Positions 4,429 through 29,130 of a stretch of 64,000 nucleotides of DNA are shown in pieces; the stretch's first letter is position 1, and each line of letters starts with the position of its first letter. Made by a program: the position numbers and the translations under genes. Source of the stretch: Albimonas marina (GTDB lineage Bacteria; Pseudomonadota; Alphaproteobacteria; Rhodobacterales; Rhodobacteraceae). The notes under the pieces are model-generated. The model made no database searches, was not told the DNA's origin, and was given only the letters and a program-made list of their open reading frames with translations. Location of the stretch: positions 186,001-250,000 of the forward strand of contig NZ_JARHUC010000002.1 of NCBI RefSeq assembly GCF_029223255.1, read 5' to 3'.

Positions 4429-4502
4429 GGCGACGTGGCGGAGTGGTTACGCAGCGGATTGCAAATCCGTGTACACCGGTTCGATTCCGGTCGTCGCCTC
4501 CA
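4429..4502 (+). tRNA. tRNA-Cys (anticodon GCA)
   Basis: The 74-nt sequence folds as a cloverleaf. The acceptor stem GGCGACG pairs with CGTCGCC, the anticodon loop carries GCA at 4461-4463 flanked by TT and AA, the T-arm contains GGTTCGATTCC, and the CCA end is encoded (4500-4502). No integrase gene or repeated tRNA 3' end was seen nearby, so there is no evidence of an island attachment site here. Confidence 0.95.
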
Positions 4503-22014: not shown

Positions 22015-22126
22015 GTCGGGCCTCGTCCAGGCGCCGCGGGATGCGGCGCGGTTGCAGGTCCGGGACCCTGGCGACGGAGGAGGCGGGTCGACGCGCCTCT
22101 CCCCTGGGGAGGGCCGTGCGCGCCGC

Positions 22127-22222
22127 ATCCGTTTCCCTTCGCCGGCATGACCCGGATCAGGTTCGACGGGTTGATGCGCACACGCACCTCTCAGCCCCTG
22201 GTCTTGGGACGCCCCGACGGAT
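22127..22222 (-). ncRNA. TPP riboswitch (thi box)
   Basis: On the minus strand the conserved thi-box elements are present in order: GGGGCTGAGAGG, then GAACCTGATCCGGGTCATGC, then CGGCGAAGGGAAA. The closing stem P1 is visible as ATCCGT (22222-22217) pairing with ACGGAT (22132-22127). TPP binding should shut off thiYZX. The 110 nt between the aptamer and the thiY start contain a CCTCCCC/GGGGAGAGG hairpin near 22095-22112 that could serve as the expression platform, either as a terminator-like stem or by controlling ribosome access. Confidence 0.95.
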
Positions 22223-22228
22223 GGGCCG

Positions 22229-27601: not shown

Positions 27602-27744
27602 CCTCCGGGACGGGGGCGCCGCGGCGGCCCGCGCGCGGGTCGCGAAGGCGCGCCCGCGGCGCGGGGCGGGCGTCGGCGCCTTGGGGACGGTTTCTCCAAG
27701 GGCGAGGGCGCGTGGGCTGCAAGGGCGCGGGCGCTTCCGGAACC

Positions 27745-27923
27745 CACCAGAGAACAAGGCCCGCGCCTGTTCTCCGGATCCGTCCATCGCTGAAGATGCC
27801 TGAGCGACTCGGCGGGCGGGGTCAAGGACAAGCCCCCTTCGGGGGTCGCTGCGCGATCCCTGACCCCGCCCGCCGAGTCGCTCTGAACGGCATCAGCGAT
27901 GGACGGCTCCGGAGAACAGGCGC
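27745..27923 (+). repeat. Long palindromic element, copy 1
   Basis: A 161-bp near-perfect palindrome (27763-27923) in an intergenic region of 442 bp. The outer arms (31 bp, starting GCGCCTGTTCTCCGGA) match with one mismatch. After short unpaired strips come inner arms of 23 bp, which match perfectly and hold GAGCGACTCG, a variable block GCGGGCGGGG and TCA, then an asymmetric centre (AGGACAAGCCCCC, TTCG loop, GGGGGTCGCTGCGCGATCCC). Left of the palindrome CACCAGAGAACAAGGCC is also shared with copy 2, giving the element a direction. Copy 2 lies 0.9 kb away in the opposite orientation, across the M48 protease gene. Confidence 0.85.
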
Positions 27924-28043
27924 TGCCGCGGGGGCTTGGGGCGGGCGGCGCGGGCGCCCGGTAGGCGAGGCTTGCTCAAAAGGGCGACGCTTCGCGGGCG
28001 CGCAGGCGCTGACAGGACGGGCGGGAGCGCCTATCTAGCACGG

Positions 28044-28754
28044 ATGCTGAAGTTCCTGCCCTTCCTCCTCGTCATCGGCTACGCCCTGATCGCCTGGCGC
28101 TGGTCCGCCTGGCGGCTGAAGCGGGAGCTCGCCGAGCGGGCGCGCCCGCTGGATCATCCCGAGATCGAGGCCGCAGTGCGCCGCCTGGGCCGCGCGCTGG
28201 AGATCCCGCACCTCCAGGCGCATGTCTACGACGTGCCGGTCTTCAACGGGCTGGCCGCGCCCGACGGGCGGGTGTTCGTCACCGCAGGCGTGCTGGACCA
28301 GCACCGGCTGGGGCGGGTGAGCACGGACGAGGTCGCCTCGATCGTGGCGCATGAGCTGGGCCACGTGGGGCTGGGGCACTCGCGCCGCCGGATGATCGAC
28401 TGGACCGGGCAGAACGCGATCCGCTGGGCGGCGGTGGCGATCCTGGGCCGGTTCATCCCCTTCATCGGCCCCTGGATCGGCGCGATGCTGGCGAGCCTGC
28501 TGGCCGCGCGCCTGTCGCGGCAGGACGAATACGAGGCCGACGCCTTCGCCGCCGCGCTGATGCGCAAGGCGGGCCTCTCGCGGGACGCCCAGGCGAGCCT
28601 GCTGCGCAAGCTGGAGCGGATGAACCCCGGCTCCGGCGGCGTCGCCTGGCTGATGAGCCACCCGCCCTCCGAAAAGCGCGCCCGCGCCATCGAGGCGCTT
28701 CAGGCCGACTGGGACGCCCGCGGCGCCCCCGACCCCGCCCTCCGCAACGGCTGA
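28044..28754 (+). CDS. M48 family metalloprotease (HtpX/Oma1-like)
   Basis: 236 residues. An N-terminal membrane anchor (FLPFLLVIGYALIAW) is followed by the zinc-protease motif HELGH at residues 103-107 (ASIVAHELGHVGLGHSR), a second hydrophobic stretch (RFIPFIGPWIGAMLASLLAA) and the third-ligand region RQDEYEADAFAAALM. The C-terminus MSHPPSEKRARAIEAL is the usual M48 ending. It is about 50 residues shorter than classical HtpX and resembles the compact YggG/BepA-type core without TPR repeats. A role in membrane or periplasmic protein quality control is inferred. ATG 28044 was chosen as the first start after the repeat region. The gene stands alone between two inverted copies of a long palindromic element. 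Confidence 0.85.
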   Translation: MLKFLPFLLVIGYALIAWRWSAWRLKRELAERARPLDHPEIEAAVRRLGRALEIPHLQAHVYDVPVFNGLAAPDGRVFVTAGVLDQHRLGRVSTDEVASIVAHELGHVGLGHSRRRMIDWTGQNAIRWAAVAILGRFIPFIGPWIGAMLASLLAARLSRQDEYEADAFAAALMRKAGLSRDAQASLLRKLERMNPGSGGVAWLMSHPPSEKRARAIEALQADWDARGAPDPALRNG

Positions 28755-28807
28755 CGGCGCGCCGCCCGCCCCACGCGCCCCGGCGCGACGCCGGCCACGG
28801 CCGCAAA

Positions 28808-28993
28808 GCGCCTGTTCTCCGGAGCCGTCTCTCGCGGATGCCGGAAAGAGCGACTCGTCCCCGCCGGTCAGGGATCGCGAAGCGACCCCGCGCTTGCGCG
28901 GGGCTTGTCCTTGACCGGCGGGGACGAGTCGCTCAGGCATCCCTCAGCGAGAGACGGCTGCGGAGAACAGGCGCGGCCCTGTTCTTTGGTGAG
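28808..28993 (-). repeat. Long palindromic element, copy 2 (opposite orientation)
   Basis: A 167-bp near-perfect palindrome (28808-28974) with the same plan as copy 1 but reversed. The outer arms begin GCGCCTGTTCTCCG and the inner arms are again 23 bp: GAGCGACTCG, the block TCCCCGCCGG, then TCA. That block replaces GCGGGCGGGG of copy 1 in both arms at once, and the outer arms carry TCT instead of CAT in both arms. The asymmetric centre (GGGATCGCGAAGCGACCCC, a GCGC-TTGC-GCGC loop, CTTGTCCT) is shared. The extension GGCCCTGTTCTTTGGTGAG (to 28993) corresponds to the left flank of copy 1. It fills most of the 376-bp gap before the MCE operon. Confidence 0.85.
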
Positions 28994-29130
28994 TCAGGAG
29001 CCCGCCGGAGGCTCCAGTCCTCCGCAATCCCGGCGCGCCCGCCTGCAACAGGCCCAAGCCCGCCCGCAGGGCGCCCGTAGACCGCGCGCGCCGCCTCGCG
29101 GCGCGCCTCCGCCCCTCGCAGCAGGCGGCT

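Follow-up and report, generated by a model that had tools for sequence, protein, structure and literature searches.

An intergenic hairpin repeat of Rhodobacteraceae with matched arms and one preserved folding strand, hugely amplified in Albimonas

The CIR repeats of Caulobacter were reportedly described by Chen and Shapiro in 2003 and are said to occur in up to 21 copies. According to PMC2229807, these CcrM-associated intergenic repeats are about 110 bp in length and contain a conserved GANTC at or in the terminal loop of one arm. The REPs are 20-40 bp in length and contain GTAG or CGTC tags (PMC3733652). Multi-base changes in both arms of a hairpin are predicted by template switching, or quasipalindrome correction, in which one arm templates the other (PMC8794818, PMC7202029).

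The window analysed here is the whole stretch of 64,000 nucleotides of Albimonas marina (contig NZ_JARHUC010000002.1, positions 186,001 to 250,000). It was found to contain a palindrome at 27763-27923 (copy 1) and another at 28808-28974 (copy 2) in opposite orientation. The outer arms of copy 1 (27763-27793 with 27893-27923) were 97% complementary and its inner arms (27802-27828 with 27857-27883) were 96% complementary, and copy 2 contained 85% complementarity across 67 nt. The folding energy was found to be z = -13.8 for copy 1 and z = -14.2 for copy 2; none of 200 dinucleotide shuffles equalled either of them. A sequence-only reading of the window had proposed that the two palindromes follow one plan as an inverted pair and that the block and the triplet differing between them are changed in both arms together. 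This observation is confirmed, and the mirrored differences are real in both copies. The conserved unit was found to extend past these palindromes. In copy 1 a 5′ frame, beginning near 27733, contains the arm end once more as a direct repeat (AGAACAGG), and in copy 2 a tail extends to about 29073. The strand containing GTCAAGGACAAG (plus in copy 1, minus in copy 2) is called the top strand, and its complement, the folding strand (minus in copy 1, plus in copy 2), the bottom strand. The features are given below with the evidence for each in brackets, R1 being a covariance model built on the tip and the inner stem.

27733..27961, minus strand: whole conserved unit of copy 1, comprising frame, palindrome and flank (flank conservation in 214 copies; family alignment)
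27763..27923, minus strand: copy 1 palindrome (arm complementarity, fold energy)
27820..27865, minus strand: three-way-junction tip of copy 1, with closing stem GGTCAAGGA/TCCCTGACC, small GNA-loop hairpin (GCA on the minus strand), second hairpin and CTTG linker (folds, covariance model R1, pair counts, loop classes)
27806..27810, no strand: GANTC site (GACTC) in the left arm of copy 1 (sequence; family-wide GANTC count)
27875..27879, no strand: GANTC site (GAGTC) in the right arm of copy 1 (sequence; family-wide GANTC count)
27751..27759, plus strand: left direct repeat AGAACAAGG, outside the copy 1 palindrome (AGAACA-like motif in the left frame of 211 of 214 copies; collapsed in deletion scars)
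27913..27920, plus strand: right direct repeat AGAACAGG, within the arm end of copy 1 (repeat counts, deletion scars)
28808..28974, plus strand: copy 2 palindrome (arm complementarity, fold energy)
28866..28916, plus strand: three-way-junction tip of copy 2, GGTCAGGGATCGCGAAGCGACCCC...GGGGCTTGTCCTTGACC (fold, covariance model R1, loop classes)
28852..28856, no strand: GANTC site (GACTC) in the left arm of copy 2 (sequence; family-wide GANTC count)
28926..28930, no strand: GANTC site (GAGTC) in the right arm of copy 2 (sequence; family-wide GANTC count)
28811..28818, plus strand: direct repeat CCTGTTCT within the 5′ arm of copy 2 (sequence, family repeat counts)
28978..28985, plus strand: direct repeat CCTGTTCT immediately beyond the 3′ arm of copy 2 (sequence, family repeat counts)
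28975..29073, plus strand: tail of copy 2, with hairpin GGAGCC...GGCTCC (28997-29015) and module AAGCCCGCCCGCAGGGCG (29056-29073) (module matches near elements)

The central motif GTCAAGGACAAGC, searched with at most one mismatch, gave 147 matches against 27 for reversed-pattern controls in the genome of origin and 160 matches against 35 in Albimonas pacifica CGMCC 1.11030. By blastn, dozens of full-length copies were found in the genome of origin, the best 40 of 208 candidates being scored. Copies were sampled from 75 regions of the genome of origin and 44 regions of A. pacifica, each up to 20 kb and picked for holding copies, together with the window. The 227 copies extracted (132 from the genome of origin, 95 from A. 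pacifica) were nearly all of full length, with 160-168 bp between the outer ends; 215 were used for the covariation statistics and 214 for the flank and frame statistics. The palindromes of the window belong to a repeat family of about 130 copies in their own genome and about an equal number in A. pacifica, so that the further copies on which the sequence-only reading had made its proposal depend are present in both genomes.

In the fold of the bottom strand, 28 pairs form the outer stem and 22 the inner one, which includes an 8-bp variable block. An asymmetric bulge separates the two stems, and beyond the inner stem lies a three-way junction. On this strand the junction is closed by the stem GGTCAAGGA/TCCTTGACC; it has one small hairpin, TCGC-GNA-GCGA, another whose sequence varies, and CTTG left unpaired. 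The palindrome is about 165 bp in length with the ends GCGCCTG/CAGGCGC, and the frame motif AGAACAGG, a direct copy of the arm end, was found outside it in 211 of 214 copies. The tail contained the module AAGCCCGCCCGCAGGGCG, with 159 of its 189 matches at most 450 bp from an element, 157 of these being in the same orientation and about 170 nt from the centre. In the fetched regions the module also stood by itself about 30 times, and it may be a separate small repeat. The copies sit in intergenic gaps; 30 of them fell in called ORFs, most apparently in over-extended ORF starts, and a search for copies on plasmids found none. No Rfam family was found above the gathering score for the palindromes, and a known RNA family was rejected, the permissive Rfam matches (microRNA precursors, for example) being low-scoring chance ones. 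No description of the family was found in the searched literature. The Rfam scan of the window also returned a TPP riboswitch at 22116-22226 on the minus strand and a tRNA gene at 4429-4499 on the plus strand.

Partner blocks lying 20-150 bp apart were found to contain normalised mutual information of 0.83-1.0 in the 215 copies, whereas adjacent blocks of the same arm were nearly unlinked (0.03-0.26). Common descent would link neighbours first and is therefore excluded, and it is pairing that couples the arms. The stem positions were at least 93% Watson-Crick, save a few that were polymorphic on one arm. The 8-bp variable block was found to contain dozens of haplotypes and was perfectly matched in 189 of the 215 copies, with one mismatch in 24 and more in 2. 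The compensatory changes anticipated by the sequence-only reading are thus found throughout the family, and independent divergence of the arms does not occur. Intermediates of one-arm conversion were nearly absent, since only 2 of the 215 copies contained two or more mismatches in the variable block.

The non-Watson-Crick pairs of the bottom strand comprised 233 G.U against 15 A.C cells in the 215 copies, 82 against 15 when the four most polymorphic positions were set aside, and 32 against 12 when distinct position-and-pair classes were counted. Split by the reading of the neighbouring gene, the counts were 64 against 3 for the bottom sense and 61 against 2 for the top sense; the excess in both directions of transcription indicates that the element itself, rather than the host mRNA, sets the folding strand, in a split that is weakened by polymorphisms shared among copies homogenised by exchange. 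The sequence-only reading had offered selection on a folded strand or copying of one arm from the other. The first is required by the excess of G.U on a fixed strand, and arm copying alone cannot explain that excess but may add to the matching. Of the 215 copies, 198 had the lower minimum free energy on the bottom strand under RNA parameters and 207 under DNA parameters. The loops of the bottom strand were GNA triloops, GNRA or CNNG, and those of the top strand were mostly their complements. Stable DNA hairpin motifs also include C-G-closed GNA/GNNA loops and CNNG loops, so the loops alone do not separate RNA from single-stranded DNA. The covariation, the strand-specific tolerance of G.U and the loop types show that the fold of one fixed strand is preserved, and the fold probably forms in the cell.

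For 67 copies of the genome of origin, the A. pacifica regions that were fetched, which are biased to filled sites, contained the syntenic site, and 60 of these sites were filled in the same orientation. The variable block was identical in 1.7% of the orthologous pairs against 2.3% of randomly re-paired copies (8-9% and 6-7% within the genomes), and the mean stem identity was 0.851 for orthologous against 0.843 for non-orthologous copies. The sites are stable, their contents turn over, and variants are shared within a genome. Block exchange among the copies is the likely cause, to which the shared haplotypes, the weak linkage of blocks and the absence of an orthologue signal point. At the A. 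pacifica site matching L112:11297 (with L198:16513), both frames were kept and the palindrome was gone, collapsed exactly at the AGAACAGG repeat. Two AGAACAGG direct repeats were found to be merged into one in four further scars (L180:7388, L130:13586, L093:11006 and L110:1066). The strict scar pattern gave 12 matches with five clear scars, and a looser pattern gave 247 matches that were mostly due to chance. Precise loss of the palindrome between its flanking 8-bp direct repeats does occur, and some other syntenic sites were plainly empty.

Outside Albimonas, the element was found by R1 in 44 of 296 sampled Rhodobacteraceae genera/genomes, with 1 to at least 15 copies each, and class-wide in a small number of genomes from other families of Alphaproteobacteria. 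In these other families, short relatives of the tip (GTCAAGGCTGCGCAGCACC...GGCTTGGCCTTGAC) were observed at L312, L320, L322 (G604) and L310 (G424), with four copies in one genome. In the cross-genus alignment, both sides had changed in 293 cells, compared with 99.9 in shuffles, and sliding by one column brought the count down to background. Many copies outside Albimonas contained a second hairpin about 20 nt downstream. The G.U and A.C cells numbered 48 and 46 when all cells were counted, most of the A.C lying in the outermost unpaired columns, and G.U was favoured there only with the obviously unpaired columns set aside. One intergenic site, the betB-betA gap (named by eye from N-terminal sequences), was found to be used in several genera (L064, L235, L284, L296, L297, L299 and L305), possibly as a case of cis-regulatory reuse.

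The copies are an intergenic hairpin repeat of Rhodobacteraceae that is neither coding nor autonomous and is hugely amplified in Albimonas. They are most likely a REP/CIR-like hairpin repeat with its symmetry kept by selection on the fold together with hairpin-templated copying. Among the readings, a replication-associated DNA hairpin element is ranked first and is given an even chance of being right. One fixed strand would fold into a long stem that ends in a three-way junction; the junction carries a CTTG linker and two small hairpins with GNA/GNRA caps. The single-stranded folded form would arise in replication or repair. Selection for folding would keep the arms matched, most likely together with template switching in replication, in which the hairpin templates its own correction, and short blocks may be swapped among copies, by which variants would spread in the genome. 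Copies are gained and lost, and exact deletion of the palindrome between the 8-bp direct repeats is seen. The GANTC pair may tie the element to CcrM methylation.

The orientation of the copies was found to agree with the regional GC skew in 96 cases and to disagree in 46 (p = 3e-5), with differences between contigs; it suggests a lean with replication, at an agreement of only about 2:1. Y1_Tnp (PF01797, RAYT) gave no match in the genome of origin and did match in control genomes, so a RAYT/REP system was rejected. No RVT_1 was found in the genome of origin, and a retron or group II intron origin was rejected for want of a reverse transcriptase there. Y2_Tnp (IS91-like) matched neither in the genome of origin nor in any control genome. 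Since the element fixes the folding strand, its orientation leans with replication and none of the searches found an enzyme of its own, a DNA-level element is favoured over an mRNA signal. Several observations weigh on the other side. Selection on a transcribed RNA would yield equal covariation, G.U excess and GNRA loops, and the cross-genus conserved sites inside operons (betB-betA) hint at a role in mRNA. The arm-copying step was not caught, as seen from the scarcity of doubly mismatched copies, a mobilising enzyme was not found, the agreement with GC skew is modest and the G.U excess is weak outside Albimonas.

A dispersed structured RNA is the alternative that survives best, and it is possible but doubtful. 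The copies would be transcribed from the folding strand, by an own promoter or by read-through, and selection would act on the RNA fold, the copies being for instance protein-binding RNAs or a family of small RNAs. Such an RNA is consistent with the strand-fixed G.U excess, with the GNRA and gCUUGc loops on one strand and with the strong cross-genus covariation and the invariant junction. It is opposed by the roughly 130 near-identical copies per genome, by their random orientation to neighbouring genes in tandem gaps (56 vs 61), by the lack of a Rfam match and by the conserved upstream flank, in which no A+T-rich promoter-like block was seen by eye. RNA hairpins usually carry tetraloops, whereas triloops outnumber tetraloops here.

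A more elaborate form of the DNA-level reading is rather improbable. The family would be a self-editing single-stranded DNA hairpin repeat, coupled to replication, with a T-shaped tip and without an own transposase. Its folded bottom strand would be the working intermediate through which copies exchange blocks, both arms would be re-perfected in a single step, and the paired GANTC sites would show by their methylation whether a fork had just passed.

A REP-like cis element of host mRNAs, in which intercistronic or 3′ hairpins would protect or terminate transcripts in either direction, is unlikely. The copies were found in 57 convergent gaps against 20 divergent ones, and in other genera the element abuts stop and start codons within operons, as at betB-betA, at a site reused across genera. 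However, any neutral insert that spares promoters would also avoid divergent gaps, the folding strand is unchanged whichever way the mRNA runs, the orientation in tandem gaps is random and no obvious U-tract was found. A transcription-oriented UTR element was rejected on the same random orientation and on the independence of the folding strand from transcription.

A CIR-like chromosomal signal linked to CcrM, in which the paired GANTC would be the functional core and the hairpin would present the sites for binding dependent on methylation state, is more unlikely still. GANTC was found in both arms of 199 of the 215 Albimonas copies, where it lies in the stem at about 44 nt from either end, with the middle base changed jointly in both arms. 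The elements contained 11.7 GANTC per kb, against 0.81 in coding DNA, 1.23 in other intergenic DNA and 2.4 expected. The genome of origin was found to contain a RAMA-domain protein of CcrM type, the orientation of the copies tracks the GC skew, and the CIR repeats offer a precedent (PMC2229807). Against such a core, only 24 of 45 copies from other genera contained GANTC in both arms, so GANTC is not required for the family to exist. In the Albimonas regions fetched, coding DNA was observed to be about three-fold depleted in GANTC relative to base composition, with the elements as notable carriers of the motif.

The protein encoded between the two palindromes was found to be a Peptidase_M48, and its flanking by the inverted pair, pointed out in the sequence-only reading, stands as a placement in the window. 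Any link between the gene and the copies does not stand. The A. pacifica orthologue (90% identical) contained neither flanking palindrome nearby, and the orthologue in the Albimonas genome G002 (72% identical) was without the left copy; with the gene in place in both genomes and palindromes missing beside it, the gene and the copies do not move together. At the place of copy 1, the A. pacifica locus (L328) was observed to hold unrelated DNA of about 1.2 kb that contains open reading frames. A mobile cassette made of the M48 gene and both palindromes, suggested by the single gene between inverted palindromes in the window, is hardly credible and was rejected, since the elements are missing at the orthologous locus with the gene in place and about 130 other copies adjoin unrelated genes.

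Within a major family of marine bacteria, this repeat family is widespread, linked to CcrM and without annotation. With more than 200 natural paralogues of one fold, scrambled blocks and perfect pairing, it provides a dataset that separates shared ancestry, selection on the fold and arm-to-arm copying; it makes the upkeep of long palindromes directly testable, as an unusually large natural test of DNA hairpin matching.

Compared with the MITEs, the Albimonas element is alike in being small, non-coding, dispersed and built on an inverted repeat, with occasional empty orthologous sites. It is unlike them in that no parent transposon or target duplication was found (Y1 and Y2 transposases were surveyed) and in that its direct repeats are part of the element, nearly constant among copies and collapsing in scars. 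Template-switch hairpins share the multi-base changes carried by both arms, but they are a mechanism and not a family, whereas more than 200 dispersed copies with a strand-specific wobble signal were found here. The REP/BIME/REPIN repeats with RAYT are alike as high-copy extragenic palindromes with composite modules, placement near stop codons and two-copy inverted arrangements; the Albimonas element differs in its 165 bp and in the absence of GTAG/CGTC tags. The CIR repeats, compared by description only, are alike in being alphaproteobacterial, intergenic and folded as inverted repeats with a conserved GANTC, and the two hairpins of many copies from other genera may correspond to their pair of hairpins joined by a linker. 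The Albimonas element consists of one long hairpin followed by a tail with short hairpins, whereas the other genera often contain two hairpins. Unlike in CIR, the Albimonas GANTC lies in the stem of both arms and not in the terminal loop, the unit measures 165-300 bp and has a T-shaped tip, and the copy number is about six times the figure reported for CIR. The family is described neither in Rfam nor in the searched literature, and its kind, that of alphaproteobacterial and REP-like extragenic palindromes, is already known. It stands out from the known extragenic palindromes by its size, its copy number, the T shape of its tip and the clarity of its covariation.
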